Assembly (NCBI GenBank): GCA_903813345.2
Contig: CAIIXF020000005.1
Span: 3,604,356 to 3,668,355, forward strand
Length of the DNA stretch: 64,000 nt
From: Owenia fusiformis
Taxonomy: Eukaryota > Annelida > Polychaeta > Sabellida > Oweniidae
Direction of reading: 5' to 3'
Part shown: in pieces, positions 20,315-55,647 of the stretch
Layout: every line of letters begins with the position of its first letter
Numbering within the stretch: the stretch's first letter is position 1
The notes under the pieces: model-generated
Told to the model about the DNA's origin: nothing
The model's input: the letters and a program-made list of their open reading frames with translations, nothing else
Databases searched by the model: none
Translations under genes and position numbers: made by a program

Positions 20315-20853
20315 CACTGGTGATCCACTCGATTACGCTGGTTACCAAAACGGTTCGTTTTGGTAACAAAATGTCGGAACATCCGGAAGGTACGATTTTT
20401 CTCGTTTCCTTATTTTACACGTTGTAGGCAGAATTTCCACGACATTTTTTAACACAAAAATGAATGTCAGTATCATATGTTTAAGAAAGTGTACATATTT
20501 GCGAACAAATAGTTCAGAAGACAACAGAATCGTCGATTTACTTCCTCACTTAAGTTACATAAACGGTTTGGGTTAAAAGTGCAGATCTTAACTATTTTTC
20601 GAAAAACCGTTTATGTAACTTAAGTGAGGAAGTAAATCGACGATTCTGTTGTTCTCTGAGCTATTTTTTCGCAAACATGTACATTTTCTAAAGCATATGA
20701 TACTGATGTACGTTGTGAGAAAAAACGTCGTGGGGATTCTGCCTACAACGCGTGAAATAAGGAAAAAAGAAAAATCGTGCCTTCGACGTTCCGACATTTT
20801 GTTACCAAAACGGCTCGTTTTGGTAACCAGCGTAATCGAGTGGATCACCAGTG
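20315..20853. mobile_element. Foldback element, family A (CACTGGTGATCC ends)
   Basis: This is an almost complete palindrome: left arm 20315-20569, right arm 20604-20853, 34-bp loop. The outer ends are CACTGGTGATCCACTCG and CGAGTGGATCACCAGTG. A perfect 5-bp duplication TACAT flanks it (20310-20314 and 20854-20858). No coding capacity. It has the structure of a non-autonomous element moved by a transposase acting in trans. A single-arm relative lies at 47521-47702. Confidence 0.85.
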
Positions 20854-20984
20854 TACATGTAAATTTGAGAATTCAGACCGTTTTTTTGCATTTAAAATCG
20901 TAGTCCAGTGAAGGCCTTACATAATGCAGATCATTGTAATTGTACACCGTTTGCTTGGGGAGTTGATATCTCAGCCAAGTAAGT

Positions 20985-21482
20985 AATAGTTTGTATCTCA
21001 TACTTAAGTGGGTTTGGGGTAGATATCACTCGGGAATATATATCATATCTGAGGAGCGGGCAGGATATATTGTATATGTCCCACTCAAGGCCAAATGCGG
21101 GCAGATATAATATATCCATCCCGCTCCCGGGAATTTTTCAAAAGTTTAAAAAAGTTTAAATATCAAAAGTTTTAATTTTTTAATTTTAAAATTTAAATTT
21201 TTTAAGTTTAAATGTTACAATTTCATTGTATTGAACAAAAAGAATATTACGAAATTGTTAAATATAAATATCTTGTCATTTGAAAAAAGGTGGAAAAGGT
21301 TATATCTACCCTAAACCCACTCAAGTATGAGATACACCAGTTATGCACTGTCGGTTTGGATACATGGAATATCCCTTGGGATATACAATACATCTTCCCT
21401 CGGTCCCTTCGGTCCCTCGGGAAGATATATTGTATATCCCTCAGGATATTCCCTGTATCCAAAACCTCCCAGTGCATAACCC
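20985..21482. repeat. Cluster of nested palindromes
   Basis: The outer arms at 20990-21030 and 21297-21340 share CTCATACTTAAGTGGGTTT and its reverse complement. Inside are a GAGCGGG...CCCGCTC palindrome (about 21052-21128) and an A/T-only stretch (about 21138-21215). A second hairpin (21340-21482) is built on GGATATACAATACATCTTCC and its complement around the axis TCGGTCCCTTCGGTCCC. Open frames here are by-products of the symmetry. Confidence 0.65.
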
Positions 21483-22492
21483 CTATATATGTTCTATATG
21501 GCTTTAATAGAATTAAATTACCATGGGAGCAATTGTTTCTCAATAAATAGGATGCTGTGATTGAGTAGTTTTGAATTCATATAGATGCCTAAATCAGAAT
21601 ATATAATCGAGAATAATTGAATTAATGTTTCGTTAAGTAAACCATCACCTAATACAAATACATTCACTTCTAGGAAAAGTATTAGGACATAACATGAATT
21701 ATATGGTTGTCGTCCCTGTGAGTTTCTGCTACTCCATATGTATATTAGTAACGCATTCTGAAAATGTTAGAAGATTCATGCATGTTATATGTTAATCTTT
21801 AGAAAGGCTCTAAGATTTCACGACATTCCTTTTATTACATACAATAGGCTATTGTCTGACATCTTTATAATGTTTCTTTGATGCTTAATTGTTCGTTAGG
21901 GATTATGAATTATGTATCTAGCACGCCTCTTGTGTTTTGTAGGAATTACATATTGAGATGCGAAGTAATGATGCAAACAATAGTCAATGCAGTGTGTTAA
22001 TTTCTTTATTTGATAGACTTTTTCAGAGCATCAAAGACGATCAAATGAACTGGACTGGGCATTTCCTGGGAGTCCCATCAATTACTTTGTGAGGTGATTG
22101 AATCTCACAGTGCATATAGGATATGTTAAATAGAACTGAAAGCTGGGTAAATAGAAACAGATTTCGAACCTGTATGAACTCAATTTTGAGTTGTTTGGAA
22201 TCATTACTTCATTTTGTACATACAGATTTGAAATGTCTAATTAATGAGAATTGATGTATGAATTTAACTTAATGAGTCATTCCAAATCATCAGTCCCCGA
22301 TTTGATTTGTCAAAAAGTGATAATGCATGGCGATTGGCCATGTCTCAGCCCATGTACCGCTGTTATAATATTGTTCCGCAAAGAATGTAACGCGGGGCGA
22401 AGTACTCATATTATCTCAGATTGATTTACATCTACCGTTAGATCAGAAATCCAACATCTGAACTGCGTTGACACTTCACAGAGTAACGCATG

Positions 22493-22649
22493 CAAATCGT
22501 ACGCATAAACCCAGGGAAATAAAAAAACATGAGCGTTATTGCCATGGTAACTATTGTTTTGGTTTCAAATCGTACGCATAAACCCGGGGAAATAAAAAAA
22601 CATATATGTCTATGAGTGTTTATTGCCCTGGTAACTATTGTTCTGGTTT
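22493..22649 (+). repeat. Tandem duplication of a 73-bp unit
   Basis: Unit 1 is 22493-22565 and unit 2 is 22566-22649. Both begin CAAATCGTACGCATAAACCC and end in TTCTGGTTT or TTTTGGTTT. Unit 2 carries an 11-bp insertion. Confidence 0.75.
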
Positions 22650-22836
22650 CCATACGTTTACATGGTGACTCAGTTCGGCTTATGAATGACAAATGCATGT
22701 GAAGCGGGGCCATTTAGATGTCAATACGAGCAAGAACAAGTATAGTAGTATTATATCACACCAAAAACAACCAATAGACATCAACAAATTGTAAACGACT
22801 GTTCAGTGTAACTTCGATAATTAATATAGCAACTAT

Positions 22837-23374
22837 CACTGCTACCCACCTAGTTACACAGACGTATCGTCAGTGTATCATGGCTGAACTACTTCCGGGA
22901 TTTGAATTTGGTAAGATATTTTCATTTCTCGATTACATCTACTTATAAGTCACGATGTGGATTATAATTTGGCTCGAAGTTATGGGAAATAGTCTAGTTT
23001 GAGAATGTGTCGATGGTTTAGGTTTGGTATGTTAACGAAGACGCATTTCACATATTTAGTCCCTCGCTTTTGTTACACTGACGATCGGCATTAATATTGC
23101 CAATATTACACTGATATTGGTCGTACGTCAGTGTAACAAAAGCGAGGGACTAAATACGTGAATTGTGTCTTCGTTAACATATAAAACCTAAAACCATCGA
23201 CACATTCTCAAACTAGACTATCTTCCTTAACTTCGAGCCAAATTATTATCCACAACGTGACTTATAAGTAGGTGTAAATCGGGAAATAAAAAAATCTTAC
23301 CGAAACCTAGTTCCGGAAGTAGTTCCGCCATGATACAGTGACGATACGTCTGTGTAACCAGGTGGGTAGCAGTG
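22837..23374. mobile_element. Foldback element, family B copy 1 (CACTGCTACCCACC ends)
   Basis: Near-complete palindrome of 538 bp with arms of about 245 bp around a GATCGGCATTAATATTGCC centre. The outer bases are CACTGC...GCAGTG. A 5-bp duplication ACTAT is seen at 22832-22836 and 23375-23379. No coding sequence. The two arms differ at many positions, and those differences are shared, inverted, with the copy at 54580-55119. Confidence 0.85.
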
Positions 23375-23379
23375 ACTAT

Positions 23380-26300
23380 GTAATATTCGATGAAGTAGGA
23401 TTGGAATAGCCAAAAAGTCTAAATCACACTTTGGTTTATTCAGTAAATGGGAAATATTACAGCCTACATCAGTAACATTTCAGTCTTTAAGATTTATCCT
23501 TCATGAATTATTTCATAATTCATTATAAAATGCAAATAATGATTGCTTCGGGCATTCGTTTCCCGACGTTATGTCAAATAACATTTGATTTACACCTTCG
23601 TTAATATATTGCAAGACGTTCGAGGGAAATAAAGTTACCCCAAACCCAATAAATGTCTATCTGAATGAACTAAAAGTAGGTGACAATATGGAAACTGCAA
23701 TGCAAGCAAGATGAAATACAAACCTATCATAATAGCAGTATTTCTAAGTATCATTGGAATGTTATCTTCTACAACCGCCAACATCTGAACTACTTAAGTA
23801 CAGTGCAAATGTCACAGAAGCCTTCTACAAGAAGCAATATTCCTGTTGAAAAATACCCATAAACACAGGTCTGTATATTCGTAAAGCTCAAGTATCAAAC
23901 TTCAATGTAACGTCTCATCCGTCCTTCACTGTTACGAATCTTCGGTGGTTTATGTTCTACTTGTTTCGACACTGTCTAATTCAGTTCAGCTTATGTACTG
24001 TGGCAACTTCAAGATACAATTACTGGTGATGATGTTAGGAGAGCCATAGCGAAAACAATTGTGTGACCAAAGACCCATACACACTTCTGGTTCGAATAGT
24101 ACAGCAATCCCAGGAATAAACATGATTTTAAACGTTACGTAAGTTAAATACCTAGTCAATCATTGAGAACGGTAAAGTTTGACTTATGAAATTGAACATC
24201 ATAATTGAAATTAGTGTATCCTTTCCAATCTCTATTTCCATCTCTTGGTTCAAACACTTTTATAACGCGGGAGAAGTGTTACCTACGAAATGGTTGTAGC
24301 CTCGGATGAATTTCAATTTACGTTATGAATATACAAAAACTGACCGATTAATACAAGACAAACATTTTTATATTTAGTATATCACAAATTAAGGCTCTGA
24401 TTTTCTTGACATGGTTTCGAGAAGCATATTCATCTTTCCTTGCGATATGTACTTTCTCTTCTGGACTTCTGTGACGTTGAGCTCAATCCTACCTTTAAAA
24501 AGGGAGCTACACGTAACAGTAAGCAACATAAATTTTTCAATTTTTCTATAAGAGATGGTCTACAACCATCTCCTTACCTAATCATTATGGTGACCAAAGA
24601 CTAAAACTACTACCACAAAGAAGGAGCCCGGACTAACTGGATACATCTAGAAGCTAGAACACTGGCACAATAGAACTGCAAAATTTGGTTATGCACAGTA
24701 TATAAAAACAAAACAGAAAAAGTGTATTCGTATTCTTTAAAGAATTGCGTTTTTTGGCCCAACCTGTTGAGTGGGACTTGCACTGTATCACAATTGATTC
24801 ATCAGTCACAACCGTCCCTAAGTTTTTACTATTGTTTTGAAATTACCCAGTTGAAATGGATTAATGATATGGAATAAACATATTCCCATCTTCAGAAAAA
24901 ACACCAAAATAAACCACATCTTAGTTGGGAAAAATATTGCTTTGTCGACAATTGCAATGTAAAGGTTTTGTAGTGAGTACACGTTCTTCATAAACAACAA
25001 ATCACATTCTAATACTCATCATATCTTTGTTGTTAACTAGAACCATCCTACTGCATTTCGTTTTGACACATCATTTTTTGATTCAATGGGAGAGCGTTCA
25101 CACCTTTTTAATCGTGATGCCAATAGTGTATTTGTCATATCTGTTGTCCTTATGTTCATACGCATGTATTACACAATATGTACGCCATTCTACTGTGAGT
25201 CATGATCACTATAAATGCAGGCACAAATTAGCAAATTATCCTCTCTCCAATGATTCTTATCATATCTCACGACTTTCAAATATTTCATCAAAGTAACAAT
25301 TAAATACCACAGGGAAATATAAACTTGATAATCACAGAAAGAGTTATTGACTCTTAATGTAAAATAATGCAGAGACTGTTTGTTAAAATCCAATATGTTC
25401 ATTTGGAAAGCACAGAGGTTAGGCTAGATGATGACTCTATGCCACTGTGGAACAATATATCCAATAAGGATGTTTTCAAGAATTATCTAACTTTTTGTCT
25501 TGTTAATGAAATAAACATGATAATAGCATATCTGATAAAATTCCATCAATTCTTAAGTTTTATGTTAAGTTTAACGATTCTCTTTGGCAATGCGTTTCGA
25601 TCTATCCCAGACAATATACTCTTAACCAATACAATTAAGAATACGGATTTCCTTTTACGTCTTCATTATTGTGCAGCAACTTTTGGGATCATGTAAGTGG
25701 GCTATTCAAAAAATTACAATACTGCATTAGTATAAGGCATATATAATTCAACGTTAGATTGCATTTAGGTCAATATTATGCGGGATAGACACCGATCGGC
25801 GGGAGTTCTACAGAAACAAGTCTCTTTACCTCGGGCTGGGAACGTTTAATTTTTGGAATGAGTCAAAGTGTGACATTTAAGGAGGAGACAAGTGGGCGAT
25901 TCCGTAGGCTCATGCAAGTCAATAAAAACAATAATATTTAACCCTTTTCATCGCCATACATTGTACTCCAGAGGTATCTAAATTACAAAAGCGTTACCAC
26001 AACGAGAAACACTATATAATAAACATCAATACGACGAGATAATAGATTTATTATCCAAATTGAATAATAAATAATAAGATCAGTTACTGTTGAATAACAT
26101 TCTGCCCGGGATTTGTCATTAATCATATAGAAATGTCTTATCCGAACAGCTTACATGTACGTATTATCCGTTGCGGCCATTACAATTTTACATATCTAAT
26201 TAGCTAAGTAAATAAACATGCGTCGACACAGTCGCAGTTGACTATGAAAAGCTCAATCATCAATCTTATTTTTATTTTCTCGATTTAAAGATTTATTTTG

Positions 26301-27313
26301 TTTAAAAAAGAAAATGTTTGATTTTTAAGTTCAACCTTTAATTCTTATTATCAAGAACGCGCATGCAAATTCGCCAACCATGTACATTGTTTGCAGTCTG
26401 AGCAATTTAATGTAAAGCATTGTATATTTTTCGATATACTGTAATACTATTCATTATTTGTAAAATTGAACCGATTAAATATAATCTAAAATTAATCAGC
26501 TTTAAATACATTATATGTCATAAAAGTTGCCTTAATACAATACAATTCGTGCGTTTGTAAATGCTCTAAAGCCCCGCTAGTATATGAACGAATCCTAGAT
26601 AGAAATGAGTAAAATTCATTCCCATTAGTGTGTACACGTTCTACACCGAGACTTCTCCTTTAAATCAAATCAGTCCACTAGTATGAGTTAAGAATGGACA
26701 GAGGGACGGATGGCTTCATTCAATGGGATAATTAAGATATTTCAAAACCAGTGTCATTCTTCTATGCATATATCACTCCAATCATAACATGAAACAAGCT
26801 GTTTATTTTAAAACTATTCTTTACGAATCTATGATAAGTGTATAATGTTCAATCATACAAATCGCAGTCAGTGATTGTTCTCCACACTCACCCCTCCCCC
26901 TTCCTGACATGAACTATTTTGTAAAACCATTGACAGTGTGGAAAGGATTTTTACACTCGAGTGTCAAGGGGGGGGGGGGCGTTACAGAAATATACAAGGC
27001 GATGGTTCAAATTGGACAATTTTCAAAACTGCTCAACATGGTGAAAACTTCACGTTTTTAAAGAATGCTTGCCCGGCGAGTGGTTTGCTCTGGATTGCGA
27101 GCGAACAAAAACTTTGAGTTAGGATTTTTCCTAATACTATCTATACTACGTCGCGTGAGAATAACTTTGTACTAACTGCCATTTTCAAAAAAATTGAGAT
27201 AGACATGGAATTTTACTATTTGAAACATAGGCTTTCATCTCAGATACATGCCCCATCTCAATTCCCTCTCATTAAGCTAGAATTCAGTGTGAAATTGTAC
27301 CATCTCCAGACAA
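23380..27313. other. Gene-free stretch
   Basis: About 3.9 kb without a supported gene. The frame at 25367-25696 (109 residues) has no domain, signal peptide or splice context I can defend. A G-run lies at about 26969-26980. Confidence 0.35.
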
Positions 27314-29138: not shown

Positions 29139-29229
29139 TATTCCGGTGGGAAATTGTATCAACTCCATTTCCATAGTTTTAAAAAAGGATCTTGTAAATT
29201 GTTTCAAGGTATGATATTCCAAATAAGAT

Positions 29230-32170
29230 AGTGGGCTGTATAGCAAGGTTGGTCGGGGTCGGGAGCTGGGGATAATTTTATTGCTTAAATATAACCATAT
29301 CATCATCCTACATTAGAATCCACTCAGTCTAACATCAATTTCTGGTGCGAAAGTTGTCATTTTTGAGTTTTACCCCCCTTGACGACAAATTCTTGGGGGT
29401 ACTATGACAAATGCTTATAACTAAAGAAGTATTTATTTGATCATCTTCATTTTTGGCATGGGTAATGAACAGGTATGTAAAAGTAAAATTTGAAAAATTC
29501 ATACAAATCGGGTGATTAATCCATTCTAAAGATAATAATTCAGGTATTTTCAAGGGTCAATTTCAACATTTTCTGAATGTCACCATGAAGTAAAAATGAC
29601 ATTATGACCCAATGACATATTTATTGAATGTTTTTAGGCTTTAGAAAATAATTTGACTATATAAGCTAAAATAATAACATGAGAATTATACCATATTGAT
29701 AATTCTTCATCGCCATCCAGGCACAAATAAACTCCCCCTCCCCCATTTTCGAATATAAAGGTCTGTACCTGAAACTCCCACAAATAGCTATATTTCAGAA
29801 ACTATTACAGCATACATTCCAAAATTTCTCATGGTGATTATACACATCATACTCTGCATAATAGACATATAATTGAGATTTATTCATTCTATATCTAATA
29901 ATTAAGGTATTTTCAAGGTTCAATTTCATCGTTTTCGGAATGTCGCCATGAAGTAAAAATTACATGACCCAATGACATATTAATTAAATGTTTTTAGGCT
30001 TTAGAAAATAATTTGACTATATAAGCTAAGATAATAACATAAGAATTGTACAATATTGATAATTCTTCATCGCCATCCAGGGATAAATACCCCCCCCCCC
30101 CATTTGCGAAAAGAAAGGTTTTTACCTGAAACTTTCTCAAATAGCTATATTTCAGAAACTATTACAGCCTCCATTCCAAAGTCAACGATTTCATAGATAA
30201 AATCTTTTCAGGTGATGTTGATAACTAACAATGTTCAACTACTTGAAGCAAATGTTGAAGTGAATACTCAAGCAAATTGTATTGGTGAAGTTATTCAAAA
30301 ACATATTGGTTGAACATATTAATCATTATTGAATGTTGTCAAGCATATTGCCTGGATGGTGTCAATTGAATGTTTAGTCATCGGTATTGATTATGTATTT
30401 CCTAAAGCATACAGATTTAATGCTTATAGTTTTATGCTTAGAAACTAAATTACAAACAAGAAAGAAACGATTCCTTCATGAATATCAAACCTAAGTGAAT
30501 CTCAGGATTAAATGCAAATACTGAAATCATTTAAACTAGATGGATAATATATTTCAATTATGTCAAATGAAAATAGGTGATTATTGCATCACGCGGTACA
30601 AACTTCGACCGTTAATTTGAATTTTTGACCTACCGGATGTTTGAAAATCAAGGATTACAAGTCTCGTACTGCACCGTTTTTCTTCAAACTTGTTCCATTC
30701 AAAGCATAACAAAAATCGCTTTCTGTTGGTACATTATTCTCTTAAACAGAGTCCCTACTTCCAGCGGCATTTTGGTCCCCAGCTGTAAGAAGGCCTTCTA
30801 ACAGCTGGGGACCAAAACGCTGCTAGAAGGAGGGACTCTACAATCAAGTAATGCACCGACAGAAAGGCAATTTTGCTTTGCTTTTAATGGTATAAGTTTG
30901 AAGAAAAACGGTGTAGTATGAGACTCGCAATCCTTGATTTTCGAGCATCTGGTAGGTCAAAAATTCAAATTAACGGTCGAAGTTTGTACCGCGTGTGCAT
31001 AAGATAAATATGTTTTTGTAATATTCTCAAAAATGATGACAATCCAAATTATCTCTGTTGTAGTGTTGTGACAACCCTCTAAAACATATACTTGTATTTT
31101 GATTTCTAAGATGTCTAATAAATATACCATTATTCTTAGCTACACCCTCAAAAAGTGTTAAGACTTCAATAATATGTATAATATGCAGATTTTGATGTGT
31201 ATAATCAACATGAGAAATTTTGGAATGGAGGCTGAAATAGTTTCTGAAATATAGCTATTTGAGAAAGTTTCAGGTAAAAACCTTTCTTTTCGCAAATGGG
31301 GGGGGGGGGTATTTATCCCTGGATGGGGATGAAGAATTATCAATATTGTACAATTCTTATGTTATTATCTTAGCTTATATAGTCAAATTAATTTCTAAAG
31401 CCTAAAAACATTTAATAAATATGTCATTGGGTCATGTAATTTTTACTTCATGGCGAGATTCCGAAAATACTGAAATTGAACCTTGAAAATACCTTAATTA
31501 TTAGATATAGAATGGATAAATCACAATTATATGTCTATTATGCAGAGTATGATGTGTATAATCACCATGAGAAATTTTGGAATGTAGGCTGTAATAGTTT
31601 CTGAAATATAGCTATTTGAGGAAGTTTCAGGTACAGACCTTTATATTCGAAAATGGGGGAGGGGGGAGTTTATTTGTGCCTGGATGGCGATGAAGAATTA
31701 TCAATATGGTACAATTCTCATGTTATTATTTTAGCTTATATAGTCAAATTATTTTCTTAAGCCTAAAAACATTCAATAAATATGTCATTGGGTCATAATG
31801 TCATTTTTACTTCATGGCGACATTCAGAAAATGTTGAAATTGACCCTTGAAAATACCTGAATTATTATCTTTAGAATGGATTAATCACCTGATTTGTATG
31901 AATTTTTCAAATTTTACTTTTACATACCTGTTCATTACCCATGCCAAAAATGAAGATGATCAGATAAATACTTCTTTAGTTATAAGCATTTGTCATAGTA
32001 CCCCCAATAATTTGTCGTCAAGGGGGGTAAAACTCAAAAATGACAACTTTCGCACCAGAAATTGATGTTAGACTGTGTGGATTCTAATGTAGGATGATGA
32101 TATGGTTATATTTAAGCAATAAAATTATCCCCAGCTCCCGACCCCGACCAACCTTGCTATACAGCCCACT
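29230..32170. mobile_element. 2.9 kb element with about 950-bp inverted repeats
   Basis: Left arm about 29230-30182, right arm about 31217-32170, with ends AGTGGGCTGTATAGC and GCTATACAGCCCACT. A 5-bp duplication AAGAT flanks it (29225-29229 and 32171-32175). Each arm is itself an internal direct duplication with a step of about 362 bp (unit starts near 29531 and 29892). The loop holds the nested family-C foldback 30590-30995; without it the element would be about 2.5 kb. The mirrored open frames at 29335-29553 and 31847-32065 encode nearly the same peptide because of the symmetry and are not evidence of a gene. Confidence 0.75.
30590..30995. mobile_element. Foldback element, family C copy 1 (CACGCGGT ends), nested
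   Basis: A 406-bp palindrome with a central axis of GGTCCCCAGCTGT and its complement. Ends are CACGCGG...CCGCGTG. The 5-bp duplication TGCAT is at 30585-30589 and 30996-31000. It lies in the loop of the 29230-32170 element, so it inserted later. Full relative at 55240-55647, one-arm relative at 42675-42776. Confidence 0.85.
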
Positions 32171-32514
32171 AAGATATCTCTAGGGTGAGACCAGGTGACA
32201 TACAAAAAATCAAGTTTCACATAGCAATACTAAGTAAGATACAGACCTCTAAACTTTCAAACCTTGATTTCTCAGTTCCGTAAAAATGTGAGATAGTACA
32301 AAGTTATTCTCATGCGACGACTAAACAACTTTTTAAACCGTCTCTGACTACATATCATGCCAATTAATACCATTATTGTGTTGACAGGATTAAATATAAT
32401 ATCTATGGAATTATAATTTAATGAACTCAATAGTCTAAATGATAATAACTTCATAATTTAGTCTTGGCTGACGTAGTCTTGCACCATCAGAGTTGGATTG
32501 CAAATACCTCCCTA

Positions 32515-34940: not shown

Positions 34941-34941
34941 G

Positions 34942-40486: not shown

Positions 40487-41746
40487 CACTCCCCTCCATA
40501 AGTTTGGCAACCGTTTTCCCCCATTGAACTACGTGTTAAAGCCTCTTTTCCTTGGAATTTTTATTTACTTAACCTGCGATAGAAATACTTATACTATTGA
40601 TGGAAACGTAATTTGACTTTATTTCCAATACCTCCAAATTTTCTCAATTTTTTCCGCAATTACAATAGGTCGAAAATTGATGATAAATTTGATGAATTTT
40701 TGAAAATCGACATTCCCATGTTAACCAATGGGAAATGGTAGGTTTGCCGCAAGTCATATGACTGAATATCCATCCATCCGAGTCCTTGCAAAAAATACGA
40801 GTTAGGCAGGCAATTGAATTTGCTAACTTTATTTAACAAAAAATTGATATGTTTCTTCAGGTTCAACAAAGTTATGGGGCTTTAAAGTCAAAATAGTTTT
40901 TCAAAACAACTCTCCCATTGAAATAACACAGGAGGCGAAAAATTATTTTCAAAAATGACTTTGAGGCGCTGTAACTTTAATATACATCAAATAAACTAAA
41001 CACTTAGTGTTCAAAAAAAGTTAGACAATTCAATTTTCTATATAAAAGTATTTTTTGCTGAATCTTTTACTGAAAAGATATCCTGATTTCTGATTTGCCC
41101 CGAACCCTCCATTTCCCATTGGATAACATGGGAATGACGATTTTCAAAAATTCATCAAATTGATCATCAATTTTCGACCTATTGTAATTGAGGAAAAAAT
41201 TGAGAAAAGGACGCTTCTCGGTTTGGAGAACAGTCTCCTGGGCTAATATTTTTTTCATGAAAAATATAGAAATATTACCCAAATTAAACTATGAATATTC
41301 AAAAGAGGACATTTAAATCTACAAGATGTAAAAATAACAAATTGGTCTGAAGCAGGGATAACGTTCAATTAGACCGATTTAATAAAAAACAAGACTCGAT
41401 TTGGGGAAAGAAGTTCATCAGTGTACTGCGCTAATATTTTTTTGCGAAAAATCTAGAAATATTACCCAAATTAAATCATGACTATTCAAAAGAAGACATT
41501 CAAATCTATATTATGTAAAAAAATTAAATTTCTCCGAAGCAGGGATAATGCTCATTTAGATTGATGAACTTCGTTCTCCAAACCGAGAATCGTCCTTTGG
41601 AGGTATTGGAAATAAAGTCAAGTTACGTTTCCATCAATATTATAAGTTATTTTATCGCCGGTTAAGTAAATAAAAATTCAAACGTAAAGAGGCTTTAACA
41701 CGAAGTTCAATGGGGGAAAAAGTTGCCAAACTTATGGAGGGGAGTG
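40487..41746. mobile_element. Foldback element with CACTCCCCTCC ends
   Basis: The outer arms (about 40487-40610 and 41630-41746) are reverse complements that include CATAAGTTTGGCAAC and TTAAAGCCTCTTT. A second inverted pair lies inside (40630-40735 against 41095-41205, sharing TTACAATAGGTCGAAAATTG). A 190-bp tandem duplication occupies 41221-41590 (GCTAATATTTTTTT at about 41240 and 41429). The ends are CAC...GTG as in families A-E, but the flanks do not give a clean 5-bp duplication: TAAGT follows the right end and occurs four bases outside the left end. Confidence 0.65.
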
Positions 41747-42594
41747 TAAGTCAATGGTGTATATCCCTATGTTCAGTCAATGCACCCTTGCTGAAATCCT
41801 CATTTTCTGGAACGTGTTGAATTTAATGGTAGTCAATGGTAGATTGAGAGAACTACTTTATGAAAGTTATATGCGCAAATTAGTACCAGTCCTTTCCTTA
41901 TTAAGATCTCTAGATATTTTCAAGATTATGGCTTAGTACTATTTTTCTGGATCTGAAATAGTTTTGTAAATGTTTTTTATTTGTCTTTTTTTTAGATAAA
42001 ACAATTTAAGACTTTTACACAGCGTATCGCATGCGTCTCTTTTTGTTTCTCAATATTTGTGGAGGTGCCTATTTAAAACCAAATCACCTGAAATAGTAGA
42101 TTGTAGCACTAAACGAAACATCATGTTCACATAATCTGCATATTTGCATATTGGTGTTGTATATATTTGATATGTACATTATATATCCGTAGTTACAATC
42201 AGATGGAATGGTGAAGATCTTTTTCAGATTAAGTAGCAAATGTTTAGTTTATGCTTTTGTTTGTTTCTTTATTTCCTCCGTGTTGGGAGAGCATAAAAAT
42301 GTACATCAAATTAAATTACATAATTTACAAAGATTTAAAGTATAAAAAAGAGATTCAACATACTTACAGAAGCATGTTCTTCAGATGTTCTATTTACATT
42401 GTTTAGGATGAAGGTATACTCAAGTATACGCCCCAAGACTCGTGGAATCTTACGCTACACATTATTATGAATTGCTCAAACATCAAATCATCCATGAACA
42501 ACTCTGACCTACTGCATGCCTAGATGTGTGTGTGAGTTAGTTAGTTCTAAAAAGATAGTCCTAGAATTATTTTCGTATGACTATTATCATTACT

Positions 42595-42655: not shown

Positions 42656-42674
42656 GAATGCAAAATGACTGGAT

Positions 42675-44164: not shown

Positions 44165-46018
44165 CACCCTATGCTTAGTGAGCGGACATAATTTCAAGGG
44201 TGATGGTAAAGACGAGGCATGGCGCCCAAAAACCAAAGAATATTAGTACCATAATCTTTTAAGTCGTATTATTGCAGCATTAGGTGATGATATTGTGATA
44301 TTTTCTGCTGTTTTAGAAGTGAAAGATGTTAAACTATGCATACCGTTTGTTTTACATCCAATAAAACGAATAGTTAAGATGAAACAGTCGTTTAAAGATA
44401 CAATTTGAATTTACCGCAAGAAATTACAACCTAATATTGTCAATATGTCAATAATTCCTGATCGATGTCACATATAAAGATATATGTACCTAGATATGTT
44501 TTATTTTTTCATATATGCGAAATAAGGCGGTCTCTAGTTATGTACATCCAATACAAAATGAATGTTTACTATTCGGCGATCAGAATTTCGATGACGAGCA
44601 ATGGCGATGTAATTTGCGAAGAGGAGTGGCTATGGGCAAGCACTCAGCTGCTACGTGTACTGCTAAATTCAGCTAAAATGTACACTGTCAATTAATAAAT
44701 TAATGAATTTGGGCAAGGTTGTCATAGGCTTCAATCAATGGTAAAAGCTTGCAAAACATCTAGTCACTTGATTTTATGATTTATCAAAAAGTGTTGGTTG
44801 TTGAACGAATAAATAGAATAACTTAAAAGAATTTTAAAATTGTATAAATGGTAACTGGCCCACACTTTTTAACAAATGTTGACAAAGTCATAAAAAATCA
44901 GACGTATGACAGATGTAGTCAGAGATTGTTGATGTCAAAGGTTGTTATCATGGCAGGTGTATTCAGAAATTGTTAACATAATAAATGAAGTCAGACTTTA
45001 TTTACATGACAAGTGTAGTCAGAGGCTGTTAACATGGCAGATAGAGTCAGAGATTGTTAACATGACAGATGTAGTCAGAGGTTGTTAATATGACAGATGT
45101 AGTCAGAGGTTTTTAACATGGCAGATGTAGTCAGAGGTTGTTAACATAACAGATGTAGTGAGAGGCTGTTACCATGACAGATGTAGTGAGAGGTTGTTAA
45201 CATGGCAGATGTAGTCAGAGGTTTTTAACATGGCAGATGTAGTTAGAGGTTGTTAACATAACAGATGTAGTCAGAGGTTGTTACCATGACAGATGTAGTG
45301 AGAGGTTGTTAACATGGCAGATGTAGTCAGAGGTTGTTTACATGGCAGATGTAGTCACAAGTTTCTGCACTGTGGGATAAACTTTTGTCAGATTAATTTT
45401 TTCTGAGACAACATAATCACTGTTAACACATTGTGTAAATTGTTTATTGATCAGGTGGTGTATTATTTCATCAAAGTCTTTTGATTTTCCGTGACAGTAG
45501 TAACACTGGAATCCCACATATCTTAAAATAAACAGTATAAATGAAATCCCTATTCCACGGCTCGTCCAAACATGCTTTTATTACCATAACCATTGCTCTT
45601 CCTTTCGAGGAATCAAAATCTCCTGATTTGACTGCTATTACGGCTCAAATTGGGAAATGGATGGGTTTACGATATAAATACGTTCATCAACAATAATTAC
45701 ATGCAATATCAAGGAATTCTATGCAGGGGAAGTATCATTATTTTGAAAATAATCGAAAAAAATATGCAGAAAATTATTTTTTCTTTTCACATCACTTCGT
45801 ATCCGTTTCACATATAAGTATGAATCTTTCTTACATTACAAATCTAATTATGGGCATCTGAAGCATCAGTGCACCTAGTTACAGGCCAGCACAAGGCCAA
45901 TAAAGAGTAGAACTTAGAGAAATAAACTTACTGCTGGTCCGCCATAGTTAGGTTTGGGCGCCCCGCCTCGTCTTTACCATCACCCTTGAAATTAGGTCCG
46001 CTCACTAAGCATAGGGTG
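44165..46018. mobile_element. Family D element (CACCCTATGC ends) carrying a minisatellite
   Basis: The TIRs are about 68 bp: 44165-44232 and 45951-46018, with ends CACCCTATGCTTAGTGAGCG and its complement and only a few mismatches. The 5-bp duplication AGTAT flanks it (44160-44164 and 46019-46023). The 1.7 kb interior is unlike other elements here and includes a 28-bp minisatellite (44907-45358). No transposase is recognisable; a 76-codon frame at 44465-44695 has no domain. A short hairpin (TAGCCTGTAT, complement) lies just outside the left end at about 44126-44158. Confidence 0.8.
44907..45358 (+). repeat. 28-bp minisatellite, about 16 units
   Basis: The consensus starts GACAGATGTAGTCAGAGG and ends TTGTTAACAT. 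The first four or five units are degenerate and the last ten are well conserved. Units 8-11 and 12-15 repeat in the same order of variants (TTTTT form, standard form, AACAG form ending in CCAT, GTGAG form), giving a 112-bp higher-order unit. This indicates expansion by multi-unit steps. Confidence 0.9.
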
Positions 46019-47470: not shown

Positions 47471-47520
47471 ACACATGTGTTCTCCACGACACACGATAGT
47501 ATTTTTAAAAGTTGTAATAT

Positions 47521-47702
47521 CACTGGTGATCCACTCGATTACGCTGGAACCGTTTCGGTAACAAAATGTCGGATCATCGAAGGTACGATTTTTATCACAA
47601 ACGCGTATCAGTATCATATGTTTAAGAAAATATACATATTTGCGAACAAATAGTTCAAAAGACAACAGAATCGTCGTTTTAATTGCTCACTTAAGTTCCA
47701 GA
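47521..47702 (+). repeat. Single-arm remnant of foldback family A
   Basis: It starts exactly at the element terminus CACTGGTGATCCACTCGATT and follows the left arm of 20315-20853 (GAACAAATAGTTC, GACAACAGAATCGTCG, CTCACTTAAGTT), with about 50 bp deleted. The other arm is absent, so this is half an element. Confidence 0.75.
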
Positions 47703-48533: not shown

Positions 48534-48644
48534 TGTACTGTGATTACTTGATATATATTTTTATTAGGCCTAAGATTAGAGATACAATCCCGGATACAAT
48601 AATACATTCAACAATGAATTTGTTGTCAAATTTTGTGATTGTAC
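48534..48644 (+). repeat. Direct repeat flanking the family E element, copy 1
   Basis: TGATTACTTG, AGAGATACAATCC and ACATTCAACAATGAATTTGTTG recur at 50963-51066 on the far side of the 48804-50677 element. This suggests a local duplication before or during that insertion. Confidence 0.65.
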
Positions 48645-48803
48645 GTATTACTTCGATTAAGCTCCCTTTTGATTGTCTATACCAAATTTTGGCAATTCGT
48701 TATAATTGCTATAACAGGATTAGTATGACTTTTGCTCGATCCCTCGGATTTGACTCCAAGCCTGTGAACAATACTGACCTGTATACATACGGTACTTACA
48801 TAT

Positions 48804-50677
48804 CACACCCGGTGATCGTGAAAATGGGACGGAGGGGGGGGGGGCAAGCAATTTCTGGTAGAAAAATGAAAAAATCTGCAAAAATTATTTTTTCAAGAAA
48901 AGGTTTATGATTTAATTGCTAAACGAATAGGCACACGGTATGGTAAAATATGTCGCGTATTCTACGAATTTTTTTTAGCCGATTCTCTTCTTAGGTATAA
49001 GATCTATTAAAAAGGCGCAACGCCACCAACGTGCAAAAGTCAATGTTTTTGCTTTAAATCAAGCACCAACGGTCTACACAACCTGCAATAAATATTTGTA
49101 AGTGATATTATCATCATAAAATTAATGACCTTAATGACTTTACAAAATACGTTTCCATACGTTGTATAAAAATAATCGAAAATAATTAAAATGGGACGGA
49201 GGGGGGGGGGGACGGAGGGGGAGCAAAATGTCTATACGACATGATGAGAGATGTTACTTCACTTTATATCCAAATTTTCCCATTTTCTCCTCAATAACAA
49301 TGGGTTAGGAATTGATAACAAGTTGTATTCGTAGTTAGATTTATTTAGGATTATCAAAATCTTGGAGGAGAGCGTTTATCTTTTTATGTGTATAATAGTT
49401 TTTATTTTCTTGAAGACTTATCATAAAAATGTAGACATCGCATCATATTTCTATTTGGACATGCAAGTTTTCGAGTAAGCAGTTACTAAAGTTGTTTCAT
49501 TATTAACCTCGCTACCAGATATCTAGTATATGTTAATATTTTTGATTATGTTGGTCTTCAGCAGATGTAGAATTTAGACTAAATAATCTGCCAGGAAGTT
49601 TCTCAATTAGTGTACCCAATCATACCATGGGCACATCGCCTATTACGCCAAATACTGTACTGTACTTTGCATATATTTTCTCACATTAAGTGTAATATAA
49701 TGAAATATGCATCTCACATTTAGTGCAATATATGTATTTATTGTAACATTTGTCCTCGACCATATGCATTTTGCAATTCACATTTAGTGCAGTATATGTA
49801 TTTATTGTAACACTTGTCTTCGACCATATGCATTTTGCAATTCACATTTAGTGCAATATATGTATTTATTGTAATATTTGACCAAATGGGTGACACTCAG
49901 ATATAAATGTATACTGTGTCTCATAAGTCGACACCGGCTGGTGATGTTACCAAATGTTATTTTTATTATGTATTTTACATGTCTATTGTAATATCAATGA
50001 CACAAAAATAAACTATTTTAAAACTAAATCAAACTTGCCTACAAATCAGCTAGTAAAAACGTTCAGACAGGTAAACATTTATAGATAAACAGTCTCCTGG
50101 AATATTTTGCCAACCTTAATTTGACCCCTCTAACTAAACCTAACAAGTACAACATGTTATCAATTCCTGACCCTTTGTAATTGAGGAGATAATGGGAAAA
50201 TCTGGATATAAAGTATCAAGTAACATCTCATATCATATCTTATAGACATATTGCTTCCCCCCCCTCCGTCCCCTCCCCCCTCCGTCCCATTTTAATTATT
50301 TTCGATTATTTTTTATACAACGTATGGAAACATATTTTGTAAAGTCATTAAGGTCATTAATTTTATGATGATAATGTCACTTACAAATATTTATTGCAGG
50401 TTGTGTAGACCGTTGATGCTTGATTTAAAGCAAAAACATTGACTTTTGCACGTTGGTGGCGTTGCGCCTTTTTTAATAGATCTTATACCTAAGAAGAGAA
50501 TCGGCTAAAAAAAATTCGTAGAATACGCGACATATTTTATCATACCGTGCGCCTATTCGTTTAGCAATTAAATCATAAACCTTTTCTTGAAAAAATAATT
50601 TTTGCAGATTTTTTCATTTTTCTACCAGAAATTGCTTGCTCCCCCCCTCCGTCCCATCTTCACGATCACCGGGTGTG
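48804..50677. mobile_element. Family E element (CACACCCGGTGATCGTGA ends)
   Basis: Long inverted repeats of about 525 bp: left 48804-49328, right about 50150-50677. Ends are CACACCCGG...CCGGGTGTG. The 5-bp duplication CATAT is at 48799-48803 and 50678-50682. Two GGGACGGAGGGGGG-type G-runs lie in each arm (about 48826-48842 and 49193-49220 on the left). The 0.8 kb loop holds a 64-bp tandem array. No transposase is seen. Confidence 0.85.
49715..49885 (+). repeat. 64-bp tandem array, about 2.7 units
   Basis: Units start at 49715, 49779 and 49843 with CACATTTAGTGCA(A/G)TATATG. A degenerate partial unit precedes them (about 49682-49714). The array is in the loop of the family E element. Confidence 0.85.
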
Positions 50678-50962
50678 CATATATGACATACTTATTTAAC
50701 TAAGTAAGTCAATCAGTTCTATACATGTATGTTTTACAATAAGCCAACGAGTGCAAAGTCCTGGTTAGTTTTACTGTCAGCTATGATCCATACATTCATA
50801 TTATTAATCGTAATAAAGTTCTGTGAATTGATTGAAATTTTTGTTTTGTTTTCTGCACTAAAGTTAAGCACATCATTCCAAAATAAAATGCAGGGGACTA
50901 TTTTAATATATTCTTGAATATCTCAATTTGTAGTAGAGTCGTAATTTTTGAAGTAAATGTAT

Positions 50963-51066
50963 GTATGTTCTGTGATTACTTGAAATCTCTCTAATAAGAC
51001 TAGAGATACAATCCAGGATATAATAACACATTCAACAATGAATTTGTTGTCAAATTTTGTGATAGT
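50963..51066 (+). repeat. Direct repeat flanking the family E element, copy 2
   Basis: Partner of 48534-48644, same orientation. Confidence 0.65.
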
Positions 51067-51516
51067 ACTAATATAAGCTGTTTGAGCTGTTGGTATCAGA
51101 TGGTTTAGATAAGGTTCTTATCAATACATTGGACATACTAGTATGAAATTCAAATGTAAGTTTTTATTTTGCCCAAAAAGTTGAAAATTCACAAAGTTGG
51201 CATTTAATGGTGGAAAATCAAATGCCCCAAAACTTATCAGTTCTAGATTCTCATACCAGAAATCTCTCATATATTAAAACATTTGTTTTATCTAAAGTGT
51301 CATCATCATGTCTCATCAAATTCTCTCTTTGCTAGATAACATTTTTTATGTTCACGCGGGCTTTCTCGAAATAAATTCAATTAAAGGAATTGCAAGCCCA
51401 TTTCTCTGTCACGAGTACATTGTACATTAGACAATCAAAGGCTCCAATAATCGAGAGAGAACCCCCTCGCTGCTTATTAGCAAGCATACATGTAGATCTA
51501 GTTATACAGTGTGTAA

Positions 51517-51619
51517 ACTATATTTATTTGGGTGTAACATTTCATCGAAATGGTAATTTAAATCTGCATATAATGTTTTGTACTCAAAAGCATTAAAGGC
51601 TCAATATGCAGTTAAAATG
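51517..51619 (+). pseudogene. Fragment of non-LTR retrotransposon reverse transcriptase
   Basis: The frame reads VNYIYLGVTFHRNGNLNLHI. This resembles the YLG(V/I)xF...NG block that follows the catalytic palm in LINE ORF2 proteins. After a frameshift near 51588 it continues SKALKAQYAVK, which resembles the next conserved block (xxKALKAxYAL). The remainder is missing: the 51629-57590 element begins at once, and no clear continuation was recognised beyond it. It is inactive as written. Confidence 0.6.
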
Positions 51620-52697
51620 TAATATTTATCCCGTGTCAGGACTATAGTCCTGCATTGAGCGCAATATTTTGCCTGTACGATTGCAACTTGGGAGAATTAT
51701 CTACGCCCCTTACACCTAAGATACCTACTTCAATAGATTCCTGGGTATTTTAGCATTCTTTTCGTGTAGTTGAATCCACAATTGTCTGGGTATATGGGCA
51801 GAACGGGAACATTTTACTTTTTCATCGAGAGATATCCCATCACTTTCCAAGATGGCGGTTGGATTTAAAAGGGGATTCCCCGTTTGACTGACCCGGAAGT
51901 GGCCCGGAAGCACCAATAGTCCATGGTATGGCTCATAGATATTACAAATCCGTGGCACCATATATGCATAACGACATTTGAACTGATATTTAGGGAGGGG
52001 CATATGTCCTTATGCTTTTAAAATGCCATTTGGTAAAAAATATTAAGGCTTTCGGGTCGCATTATGTCTGTCATCACAAGAGGTCAAAAAACGTGAAACT
52101 TTTCATGCGCATTTTAGTGCATTTTATGAGGCTCAAATTGTAAATCGAAACTTATATATAATTTAAAGGATTATGATTACATAGAAATATAATACTATTT
52201 TAACGTAAATGTCATTTTTCAATTAGTGCATTGCACTAGGGTACTTTTCAACGTTTTATTATTTAGAAAAAAATAAGACAGAGGAGATCTGACCAAATTA
52301 TGCGAAATATTCAGAAAATCTATAATTAGTAACATATTAGTTTTCTACTTATAGAAACAATATATTCACGGAAATATTTCTAGCGTTTTCAAGGGTCAAA
52401 CAACGGATTATTGTTAATGATATTCAAAACGTAATCAAATAAAAATATAAAGGATGTATCATTTAAATAATTAATCTAATTTTGGTATTGGAATGTTTAC
52501 ATTTTTAAACTAGATGATTTGCATCAAGGAATAAAGAAGGCGCAGTCAAATGCGTCGCAAATATCATAGTGTCACAATACTGTGCTCCCACAATAAAATA
52601 ACCATGCAATGTTGTAAGAAAGTAAACATTGAATGCATTATAATATATTTCAGTTTTAATTATCGATTGTTTTATAAATGAGAACGCTAGAATGATT

Positions 52698-53000
52698 GAT
52701 TAAGAAACCAGAAATCAACTTTCGTGGTTGACGAGTGACTATATTCAGGACGATTTGATGCAGTAGAGCAAGATTTGTGAAATTCAAGATAGTAATTTAG
52801 TTTTTTGAACTGTCCCTTGCGAAGACAAGATTTAGTTTTTGTTTCGATCATAACTTGACAAACGTTCGTTCTATTCTAAATGTAAATTTATAGGTGAGAG
52901 CCATACTGTCATTAATAAGAACCAGAAACCAACCTTCGTGATGGATGAGTGACACCGTTAGAGACGATTTCATTCAGCAGGGCGAGATTGTGAATTATAC
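52698..53000 (+). repeat. Imperfect direct duplication, step about 214 bp
   Basis: AACCAGAAA(T/C)CAAC(T/C)TTCGTG and GACGATTT(G/C)AT(G/T)CAG occur in order at 52704-52775 and 52920-52982. Confidence 0.5.
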
Positions 53001-53639
53001 GAAATTAAAGGTACTCATTTATATTTTATTTCATTGACTATCTTTATTTTATCATCTGTGTTCACGATATGTATCGTTGTTCCAAGGTGTGACCCTATCA
53101 ATCATATCAACTCACCCATCGCGTGCAAAGTCCCGATTGGAATTGGGAGAAATTTATAGTGTTGCACACATCCAATCTTTCAGACGAGCCTCCGATATTT
53201 AAAGACGACATCGAATCATTTTTTGTAAGACCGGTTCTCTCAAAGAATCTTACAAAGAATCTAGGCAGTTTGCATTTTCACCTCCTGTGAAATAACAAGT
53301 GGAATTTAGTAGTTGTTTTGTGTTTTATTATCATTCTGCATCGTAATTCTATGTGATGTGGTGTTGAAATGTCAGCAGAAATACTTATTCATACGATAAT
53401 CGAGTGAATCAGATAACAGATTTTTCGAAAACCCGTCTCGTGCTAAGAGTGTAAAAACTTGTATTAACATGCTCAAAAGTGCCAATGTGCACATCAATGT
53501 CAAGCTAAATCAATGTTGTGTCTAAATCAGGTACCTGTTCTACTCAAAACAGCTTGTCATTCACGTAAACACGCTTAGCAAACACAGCGAAATGACCTGA
53601 ATCTTGGAATTTCGTTCGAGAGCTAGTAATGTTTGCTCC

Positions 53640-53765
53640 GGTCTTCGTCATAAGTGTTCATCAGACTTCACGCATGCGCAGGAGAAAAACCATCAACCAA
53701 TAACGTTTATAAACCAATTTTGCGCATGCGCCTTACAACGGTAAAGAAATTCGTATTTATAAACG
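53640..53765. promoter_or_regulatory. Promoter-like patch: two NRF-1-like and two CCAAT motifs
   Basis: CGCATGCGCA at 53671-53680 and TGCGCATGCGCC at 53721-53732 are NRF-1-type cores. CCAAT motifs lie at about 53697 and 53713. TTTATAAAC occurs at about 53706 and 53756. The combination is common in TATA-less or bidirectional animal promoters (established knowledge). Short frames lie downstream on the plus strand (54021 onward), but no transcript can be proven from sequence alone. Confidence 0.35.
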
Positions 53766-53880
53766 AACCAGTTTGAGATAACCCGATATCAGTCGGAGAA
53801 ATCTGACGATCTACGAAACTCACTTCAAAAAATCAAATGCGGACTGACGGCGTATTCTACTATGTTTGGATCTAAGATTT

Positions 53881-54323
53881 TCAGTATAGATAAAGTCTTT
53901 TATGATCTTTCGAAAGAGGTAAGTCTCTAGTTCGAAAGACAATCGTATCAAGTTGAACAAAAGTTGAGTTTTGACGAAAAATTTTAACATGCGCAGAAGT
54001 CCCATTTTCGTTGTACCATATTGACTGCATTTGTGCACAAACTCTATGTCGCCAAAGCCATGCGAATTGCACTTTTACGAATTGTTGTGAGTGTTGTAAG
54101 ATACATTTTCCTTTCACGTTGTATATTGATTTGGGATAGTTGGATTTTCTTTCCATTTGGCAATGAGATCTTAGACATTTCATTTTCCTGCTATGTTTTG
54201 TCATTTTTGGTCTTTCGCATTTGGCACTCGTGCGTACATATTCATGACATTTTGGATAGAATTTGGGACAAAATGGCTACTCCCAGGCTATATCTCTTTT
54301 GTCTTTATATCGGGTATTGCTAG
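53881..54323. other. Overlapping frames on both strands, unresolved
   Basis: A 107-codon minus frame (53881-54204) and a 100-codon plus frame (54021-54323) overlap. Neither has a recognisable domain. The plus frame is hydrophobic and the minus frame basic, as expected for one being the antisense of the other. I cannot say whether either is coding. Confidence 0.2.
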
Positions 54324-54392
54324 AAAAACTAGTTTCTGGGTGAAATTATATGTCACATATGAAGGAGGTAATTTAATTTATACTTGAATACC

Positions 54393-54506
54393 ATGTATTA
54401 CTCATTTCTGAGTAAATTCTATGCTGAAGAAGTAGTGAAGAAGTTCAATATCATTGTTAATGTTTTATGTGGAGTGGTAGTCATTGTCCCTGGGTCGTTG
54501 CTAATT
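54393..54506 (+). CDS. Possible first coding exon of a membrane protein
   Basis: The ATG at 54393 opens a 38-codon stretch: a short polar start (KFYAEEVVKK) followed by a hydrophobic segment (IIVNVLCGVVVIVPGSLLI) long enough for one membrane span. It then meets a good donor sequence, GTGAGT, at 54507. Family unknown and no downstream exon identified. It lies inside the 51629-57590 element, 74 bp before a foldback insertion, so it could be a captured host exon, a decayed transposon gene, or chance. Confidence 0.25.
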
Positions 54507-54579
54507 GTGAGTACTATCCATACACTTTATTTTAGGGGAGTACAAGTTTCTTTTAACTTCATTCTATATTCTGTATAAT

Positions 54580-55119
54580 CACTACTACCCACCTAGTTAC
54601 ACAGACGTATCGTCAGTATATCATGGCGGAACTACTTCCGGGACTAGGTTTCGGTAAGATTTTTTTATTTCCCGATTTACACCTACTTATAAGTCACGTT
54701 GTGGATAATAATTTGCCTCGAAGTTAAGGAAGATGGTCTTGTTTGAGAATGTGTCGATGGTTTTAGGTTTTATATGTTAACAAAGACACAATTCAGGTAT
54801 TTAGTCCCTCGCTTTTGTTACACTGACGAACGACCAATATCAGTGTAATATTGGCAATATTAATGCTGGTCGTCAGTGTAACAAAAGCGAGGGACTAAAT
54901 ATGTGAAATGCGTCTTCGTTAACATACCAAACCTAAAACCATCGACACATTCTCAAACTAGATTATCTCCCATAACTTCGAGCCAAATTATAATCCATAT
55001 CGTGACTTATAAGTAGATGTAAATCGAGAAATAAAAATATCTTACCAAATTCAAATCCCGGAAGTAGTTCAGGCATGATACACTGACGATACGTCTGTGT
55101 AACTAGGTGGGTAGTAGTG
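54580..55119. mobile_element. Foldback element, family B copy 2, inverted
   Basis: 540 bp, with ends CACTACTACCCACC...GGTGGGTAGTAGTG. The 5-bp duplication ATAAT is at 54575-54579 and 55120-55124. Arm-specific variants (GACTAGGTTTCGG on the left, TTCAAATCCCGG on the right) are the reverse of those at 22837-23374, so the two copies lie in opposite orientation, about 31 kb apart. It is nested in the 6 kb element and therefore younger. Confidence 0.85.
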
Positions 55120-55239
55120 ATAATATTTGAAATTTTATAAAAGGTATTCCTTTCAAATAGTGCACTCTGTGATGCTATATTGTTTTTTTTTTATGTGAGG
55201 CGCATCCTATAACGTTTGATTAATCCAAGTTTTTATGTG

Positions 55240-55647
55240 CACGCGGTCCTAACTTCGACCGTTAATTTGAAATTTTGACCTACCGGATGTTTGAAAATCA
55301 AGGATTATGAGTCTCATTCTGCACCGTTTTTCTTCAAACTTGTTCTATTCAAAGCATAACAAAAATCCCTTTCTGATGGTACATTATTCTCTTAATAAGA
55401 GACCCTACTTCCAGCGGCATTTTGGTCCCCAGCTGTAAGAAGGCCTTCCGACAGCTGGGGACCAAAACGCTGCGTGAACGAGGGACTCTTTACAATCAAG
55501 TAATGCATCGACAGAAAGGCAATTTTGTTTTGCTTTTAATGGTATAAGTTTGAAGAAAAACGGTGCAGTATGAGACTCGCAATCCTTGATTTTCAAGCAC
55601 CTGGTAGGTCAAAAATTCAAATTAACGGTCGAAGTTAGTACCGCGTG
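55240..55647. mobile_element. Foldback element, family C copy 2
   Basis: 408 bp, ends CACGCGGT...ACCGCGTG, with the 5-bp duplication ATGTG at 55235-55239 and 55648-55652. Same orientation as copy 1 at 30590, judged by arm-specific differences. It lies 120 bp from the family B copy, inside the 6 kb element. The minus frame 55405-55596 is a palindrome artefact. Confidence 0.85.

Follow-up and report, generated by a model that had tools for sequence, protein, structure and literature searches.

CAC-ended elements with 5-bp target duplications in Owenia fusiformis and a candidate transposase fused to a YqaJ nuclease

A 64,000-nucleotide stretch of the Owenia fusiformis genome (the window; contig CAIIXF020000005.1) contains seven foldback-like elements of five families, A to E, which are genuine cut-and-paste mobile DNA. 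They are best explained, with a probability of about 0.78 for the reading as a whole, by a single group of elements that have CAC ends and target duplications (TSDs) of 5 bp, in which a gene for a protein with a fused YqaJ nuclease codes for the putative transposase, families D, A, and B (and probably C) are derivatives, and family E belongs by its ends.

Elements of the window and their genomic copies

All seven elements named in the initial annotation start with CAC, end with GTG, and lie between identical 5-mers, as it had described, and the coordinate check agrees with a blind scan of the window. The scan collected CAC...GTG pairs spaced 100 to 8,000 bp apart with equal 5-mer flanks and returned 86 pairs, 8 of which pass an inverted-end filter (at least 18 of 30 positions matching); these are the seven elements and a chance match between AAAAA runs. 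The element at 40487, which had been suggested as a further member, is excluded by its TA/TA flanks, with no 5-bp duplication. The seven elements are as follows.

20315 to 20853, unstranded: family A foldback; TSD TACAT; start-codon motif in both arms (20371, plus; 20797, minus)
22837 to 23374, unstranded: family B foldback; TSD ACTAT; ATGGCNGAA..GTAAGA in both arms (22880, plus; 23331, minus)
30590 to 30995, unstranded: family C foldback; TSD TGCAT; nested in 29229 to 32171
44165 to 46018, minus strand: family D element; TSD AGTAT; 66-bp TIR
48804 to 50677, unstranded: family E foldback; TSD CATAT
54580 to 55119, unstranded: second family B element; TSD ATAAT; within the larger repeat 51637 to 57582
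55240 to 55647, unstranded: second family C element; TSD ATGTG; within the larger repeat 51637 to 57582

The ends of all five families have matches across the genome: 1,321 plus and 1,338 minus for family A, 219 and 213 for B, 579 and 559 for C, 413 and 400 for E, and 86 and 86 for D, for which a reversed control pattern also matched (216 plus, 208 minus). Duplication lengths at other genomic copies, which the initial annotation had proposed as a check, bear out the window: an exact 5-bp duplication flanks 39 of the 47 independent copies fetched (9/12 for A, 7/8 for B, 5/7 for C, 11/12 for D, and 7/8 for E), in a sample taken, for each family, from the first 100 listed matches to its ends and thus favoring well-kept ends. 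Among the eight failures, L029, from family A, has a duplication of 6 bp, and the other seven lack an exact 5-bp duplication. Eight extra B and C rows, all positive, are left out because their shared flanks identify them as the window insertions inside a larger repeat, which is why the B and C rows cannot all be treated as independent. The duplications of the five families are AT-rich when pooled.

Gene-bearing relatives and their protein

Relatives of the 44165 to 46018 family hold fragments of a gene that encodes a protein of ∼1,450 to 1,600 amino acids (aa), and we infer that the family D element in the window is a nonautonomous derivative of a gene-bearing element. It retains two exon remnants.

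45932 to 45945, minus strand: first-exon remnant with its start codon at position 74 from the end; reads ATGGCGGACCAGCA and is followed by a GT splice donor
45434 to 45523, minus strand: second-exon remnant, encoding a portion of the N-terminal zinc finger; a 30-aa stretch matches the gene-bearing D query at 93% identity

A complete 9,241-bp element (L050; TSD TTTAA) carries nearly the whole gene, from the zinc finger to the C terminus. Among 15 loci sampled from 131 gene matches by match start position in the protein, both ends are in view at 8, and 7 of these 8 have CAC...GTG termini with 5/5 TSDs. Both ends were located at 16 of all gene-bearing loci examined, a tally that leaves out D copies L001 to L007 as holders of a short exon remnant only; 13 have an exact 5-bp duplication, L044 matches at 4 of 5 positions, and L025 and L073 have none, the ends of L073 being 9 bp out of register (one of them TAC) with no in-register duplication. 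At 16 gene-bearing loci (L022, L023, L026, L041, L042, L046, L047, L051, L087, L072, L074, L075, L076, L078, L082, and L085) no end pair was found, and because most loci with long or near-complete genes are among these, some could be domesticated host genes. Of the loci examined that cover the central region of the gene, L050 is the only one whose ends were found; two further matches to this region lie at C5:40.98 Mb and C4:27.6 Mb.

The long D copies were rejected as autonomous elements: L001 is filled by tandem repeats, with all six frames below the Pfam cutoff, and L003 has reverse-transcriptase-like frames, as judged by eye. Gene pieces were sought in 12 family A and 8 family E copies, and none were found; E copies L013 to L020 are accordingly ruled out as gene carriers. 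Reverse-transcriptase-like frames were also seen by eye in E copy L013. No element combining the gene with the TIR of A, C, or E was found, and the zinc finger gives a weak link to family B (E values between 4e-4 and 6e-4 in a small search). Family E is linked to the group through its ends and TSDs only.

The gene is multi-exon, and its protein contains a zinc finger, a helical block, a YqaJ-type PD-(D/E)xK nuclease domain (PF09588; Pfam E values of 1.3e-8, 9e-6, and 1e-5), and, outside the YqaJ domain, conserved D, DGQ, DxxH, and E residues. The D, DGQ, and E are conserved at 6/6 loci and the DxxH at 5/5 covered loci. The protein is likely a transposase, and its conserved acidic residues may form a DDE-type core distinct from that of Transib/RAG1, an assignment made from residue conservation in four to six sequences. 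The C-terminal E may be structural, because the region containing it has weak EF-hand-like PDB matches (E = 0.07). The top PDB match of the protein, BRE1 (E = 0.002), looks spurious, and comparison with solved transposases gives no credible match. Searches of viral contigs and prokaryote genomes yielded no relatives. The large nuclease-fused protein is apparently undescribed so far; no transposon with both YqaJ and 5-bp duplications was found in the accessible part of the literature searched.

A start-codon motif inside the ends

The initial annotation saw no sequence common to the families beyond CAC, which needs a slight correction: a start-codon motif, ATG(G/T)CNGA(A/C), recurs just inside the element ends of A, B, and D, and a weaker version is present in C (30637, plus, and 30948, minus, in both arms of 30590 to 30995). 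ATGTCGGAA is present in 2/2 window arms of family A and ATGGCNGAA in 3/4 of family B, compared with 0.02 per 100 bp in the background. The ATG is at position 74 in four of the five gene-bearing end families (D, G48, G44/84/86, and G81/83), and in these a GT donor follows 14 nt after it, giving a tiny first coding exon; exon-1 length and phase deviate in G50, A, and B. This exon-1 pattern was picked after the sequences had been inspected. Since the motif persists in the arms of A and B, and weakly in those of C, these foldbacks look, from sequence, like two joined 5' ends. A TIR submotif common to the families is only suggestive, with shuffles giving 35/2000 (k = 4), 229/2000 (k = 5), and 218/2000 (k = 6).

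That submotif result would suit five unrelated families whose different transposases converged on CAC ends and 5-bp duplications, as would family E, in which the exon-1 motif was looked for and is absent and whose eight fetched copies are free of gene pieces. Such convergence is nevertheless decidedly unlikely, given the start-codon motif that A, B, and D (and more weakly C) have in common and the occurrence of 5-bp duplications, AT-rich when pooled, in all five families. One transposon lineage, with gene-bearing members elsewhere in the genome, is supported as the explanation of D, and the same lineage probably explains A, B, and C.

Comparison with known systems and proposed mechanism

CAC ends and 5-bp TSDs are Transib traits, and RAG/Transib targets are GC-rich. 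The termini and duplication length of the new elements are like those of Transib/RAG1, but their targets are AT-rich, and their protein has a fused YqaJ nuclease and no detected sequence relation to HzTransib or RAG1. The initial annotation proposed that a Transib/RAG-type transposase elsewhere in the genome moves the elements, which is unsupported and, with the evidence now available, highly improbable. The RAG1 family Pfam model, a 56-aa Transib motif, and a 360-aa Transib composite have no match in the genome, although the composite matches the solved HzTransib at 1.8e-126 and the same protein search mode recovers relatives of the YqaJ gene family down to 27 to 28% identity; the RAG1 model is also silent in all 14 control genomes, and empty searches of this kind do not prove absence. 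The gene from the CAC/5-bp elements has no Transib/RAG1 match in PDB and Pfam, and hhalign of shallow profiles against a Transib plus RAG1 profile gives probabilities of at most 0.7%. Because the gene-bearing D-type copies carry this non-Transib gene, the autonomous partner of D belongs to another group, the outcome that the initial annotation had named as counting against its proposal. Its broader idea of one source mobilizing a diverse set survives for D and probably for A, B, and C, with the source no longer a Transib/RAG lineage.

In the new protein, the DxxH that follows the second D and the E within its 'xExFF' context resemble those of P-element/Kolobok transposases, but the duplications made by the latter are 8 bp or TTAA, not 5 bp. 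Elements of the EnSpm/CACTA type and the wider CMCT clade (EnSpm, Chapaev, and Transib) resemble the new ones in terminus type and duplication length, having mostly CA...TG termini and 2- to 5-bp duplications; between the second D and the last E, the clade has in common a C(2)C and an H(3-4)H motif (PMC12730594). Given our D and E assignment, these motifs are not seen by inspection of the protein alignments.

ISL2EU (PHIS superfamily) is like the new elements in its YqaJ exonuclease domain, DNA-binding region, and AT-rich target, but it has AT dinucleotide duplications and two open reading frames (ORFs), with YqaJ separate from a THAP/DDE transposase (PMC4482050), where the new elements have 5-bp duplications and one fused protein. 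By analogy, the YqaJ protein could be an accessory, with a separate DDE transposase cutting in trans, and the protein indeed matches no transposase Pfam model. This arrangement seems unlikely, since the protein itself, beyond its YqaJ domain, has the conserved D, DGQ, DxxH, and E, and the five ORF translations of L050 scanned against Pfam include a C2H2 zinc-finger frame and the YqaJ part of the main gene but no separate THAP/HTH DDE transposase or other transposase model, a scan that a spliced or divergent gene could escape.

With the fused protein as the transposase, its zinc finger would bind the element ends, and the enzyme would cut at CAC and insert with a 5-bp stagger, the YqaJ nuclease serving in processing or repair of the donor ends. 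Family D would arise by internal deletion and repeat filling, A and B (and probably C) would be inverted fusions of two 5' ends and so would fold back, and E would be placed in the group by its ends and duplications. We cautiously favor the further reading that these elements form an animal DNA transposon superfamily not described before, which arrived independently at the RAG/Transib hallmark of CAC ends and a 5-bp stagger and uses a single giant transposase with a YqaJ/lambda-exonuclease-type nuclease inside a D-D-DxxH-E polypeptide. On this reading, the present genome would contain several divergent lineages of it and, if end matches are counted, well over a thousand foldback derivatives, of which many would be two joined 5' ends.

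CAC ends with 5-bp duplications are easily read as Transib/RAG. If a second, unrelated enzyme leaves the same signature, the ends alone are an unsafe basis for classification, and the end chemistry of RAG may have arisen repeatedly. By having a recombination-type exonuclease fused to its transposase, an element would supply its own enzyme for end processing or repair in a new way. The position-74 start codon offers an easy means of detecting further families in other genomes.

Ends and target duplications of the foldback families

The seven foldback elements of the window belong to five families, A to E, and re-reading of the sequence bears out the initial annotation in that all seven begin with CAC, end with GTG, and lie between identical 5-mers. 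A blind scan of the window returned 86 CAC...GTG pairs with equal flanking 5-mers, only 8 of which have matching inverted ends, these being the seven listed elements and one accidental pair between AAAAA runs. The element at 40487-41750, suggested as a possible further member, is flanked by TA on both sides, without a 5-bp duplication, and does not belong here; because of its TA flanks it is probably Tc1/mariner-like.

Features of the window
8513-8964: short inverted-repeat stretch, without clear duplication
20315-20853: family A
22837-23374: family B
29229-32171: ~2.9-kb element of a different transposon type, near-identical inverted ends GTGGGCTGTATAGCAAGG, 7-bp duplication TAAGATA, enclosing the next
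30590-30995: family C
40487-41750: putative Tc1/mariner-like element
44165-46018 (minus strand): family D
45434-45523: zinc-finger exon remnant of D, 93%
45932-45945: first exon of D, kept
48804-50677: family E
51637-57582: ~5.95-kb repeat, inverted ends CAGGACTATAGTCCTGC, possible start ATCCCGTG with 7-bp duplication AATATTT, containing the next two, 120 bp apart
54580-55119: family B
55240-55647: family C
59141-59595: short inverted-repeat stretch of AACTCAACCCC-like units, without clear duplication
60401-61924: open frame resembling, by eye, an organic cation transporter-like membrane protein

Matches to the ends of all five families occur in the 498-Mb genome. The bare count for D is not clean, because a reversed control pattern also matched (216+/208-), whereas paired D copies are clean.

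Genome-wide end matches (strand) and exact 5-bp duplications in independent paired copies
A: 1321+/1338-; 9/12
B: 219+/213-; 7/8
C: 579+/559-; 5/7
D: 86+/86-; 11/12
E: 413+/400-; 7/8

Among paired copies drawn from the first 100 places listed per family, 47 of 55 rows have an exact 5-bp duplication before repeats of one insertion are removed. Rows that repeat the window B (54580) and C (55240) insertions, borne by the larger repeat, number eight (L054, L063, and the two elements of each of L055-L057) and were dropped. Of the 47 independent copies that remain, 39 have an exact 5-bp duplication, and a single copy of A has one of 6 bp. The duplications are 82% A+T versus 66% in the window, with a weak A-T-W-A-T symmetry, in a 59-row set that includes duplicate rows, window copies, and five gene-bearing elements. 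The B-C pair of the ~5.95-kb repeat recurs in L055-L057 with ~98% identity, and B and C therefore inserted before their host repeat multiplied.

A YqaJ-type gene within CAC-ended elements

Copies of D share a 66-bp terminal repeat and differ in their interiors, which contain arrays of ~28-bp tandem units that partly account for a size range of 545 to 9,415 bp among copies with both ends in one set of fetched copies. Divergent copies were recovered at the DNA level with the 5' end of D as query; a reading frame is present in two loci, L021 and L025, and a protein search with a composite of their product gave at least 131 genome matches. The frame is uninterrupted in L041 (1,438 aa) and L042 (1,467 aa), in whose proteins the YqaJ-like recombinase nuclease domain is the only Pfam domain above cut-off (E = 1.3e-8 and 9e-6). 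When the middle of the L041 protein served as query, only 13 matches were obtained, at nine loci, and most copies thus lack that part.

An N-terminal CxxC...H...H finger is present in L021, L041, L042, L045, L048, and L050. In a six-locus alignment, the D of 'xxxDGKK...GDIDL', the YqaJ motif S-DG...E-K, DGQ(W/F), and the E of 'xExFF' are kept throughout (6/6), as is DxxH in the five loci covered, which we take to resemble that of P/Kolobok. These conserved acidic residues may form a DDE core; a PDB profile search returned no credible match, the hits being to BRE1 (0.002) and to light chains of the EF-hand type (0.07 or weaker).

Gene-bearing elements and their duplications
L021/L043: D, TATCC, 6,255 bp
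L049: D, GTTAT
L024: D, TATAC
L045: further family, TATTC
L048: further family, AACAT
L044: further family, AGATG/AGGTG (4/5 match)
L050: complete 9,241-bp element, TTTAA, gene spanning finger to C-terminus

A less biased set comprised 15 of the at least 131 gene matches, picked by a start near the gene N-terminus. Both ends lie inside the 4-kb cut at eight (the other seven have no resolved end pair), and seven of these eight have CAC...GTG ends and a perfect 5-bp duplication; the eighth, L073, has one TAC end and no in-register duplication. All 16 both-ended gene-bearing loci, a tally that leaves out D copies holding just a short exon remnant (L001-L007), give 13 exact 5-bp duplications, one 4/5 match, and two with none (L025 and L073). 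No end pair was found at another 16 gene-bearing loci, which include L041, L042, L046, L047, L051, and L087, where the gene is long or almost complete. L041 and L042, YqaJ-family frames without detectable ends nearby, are possible domesticated host genes. C2H2 zinc-finger frames also lie inside the D element of L021 (2887-3876, six fingers) and the complete L050 element (8393-8824, minus strand, about four fingers), which are either a second gene of the transposon or exons captured from the host.

First-exon motifs in the foldback arms

In D and the gene-bearing end families G48, G44/84/86, and G81/83, the start codon occupies position 74, counted from the end, and a GT splice donor follows 14 nt later, its consensus spoiled by a small deletion in L077; in a fifth family, G45/G50, a comparable exon lies at position 96/97. 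With this pattern chosen post hoc, from sequences already seen, family A has ATGTCGGAA at position 57 in both arms, three of the four B arms in the window have ATGGCNGAA plus GTAAGA at position 44, and three of the four C arms have, at position 48, ATG then GAAAATCAAGG, resembling ATGACAGAAAATCGAGG of G50 (GTG in the fourth); the pattern was not found in E. Because the motif lies in their arms, A and B look like two 5' end copies in inverted orientation, as C probably does too; the 5' and 3' ends of D remain distinct. Two long B copies contain a zinc-finger-like frame (L052, E = 6e-4; L053, E = 4e-4, in a small search).

Relationship to known transposons

A Transib/RAG-type transposase, the partner first suggested for all five families, is not supported. 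A RAG1 family model has no match in the genome, and is likewise silent in all 14 control genomes. Two further queries, a Transib motif (E = 4.6e-20 against the solved Helicoverpa Transib, on which both were validated) and a 360-aa Transib composite (E = 1.8e-126), also went unmatched, an empty result not amounting to proven absence; as a guide to sensitivity, for a different protein the same protein search mode recovered relatives that are 27-28% identical. The elements resemble Transib in their CAC ends and 5-bp duplications but differ in the protein encoded.

The ends, duplication length, and gene linkage are observed. In the mechanism proposed, the zinc finger would bind the element ends, a DDE activity would cut at CAC, insertion would proceed with a 5-bp stagger, the YqaJ nuclease may process the ends, and foldback derivatives would be mobilized in trans. 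Confidence in the individual families falls from D, where it is highest, through B and A (good) and C (moderate) to E, where it is lowest.

ISL2EU elements have a DDE transposase, a separate YqaJ protein, and AT duplications (PMC4482050), and the C(2)C and H(3-4)H motifs given for the CMCT clade (PMC12730594) are not seen in the protein described here. Because comparisons with Transib, ISL2EU, and CMCT leave mismatches of protein, duplication, or motif, these elements, judged against the open-licence literature only (Repbase lying outside the search), are classed as DNA transposons of an apparently undescribed group.
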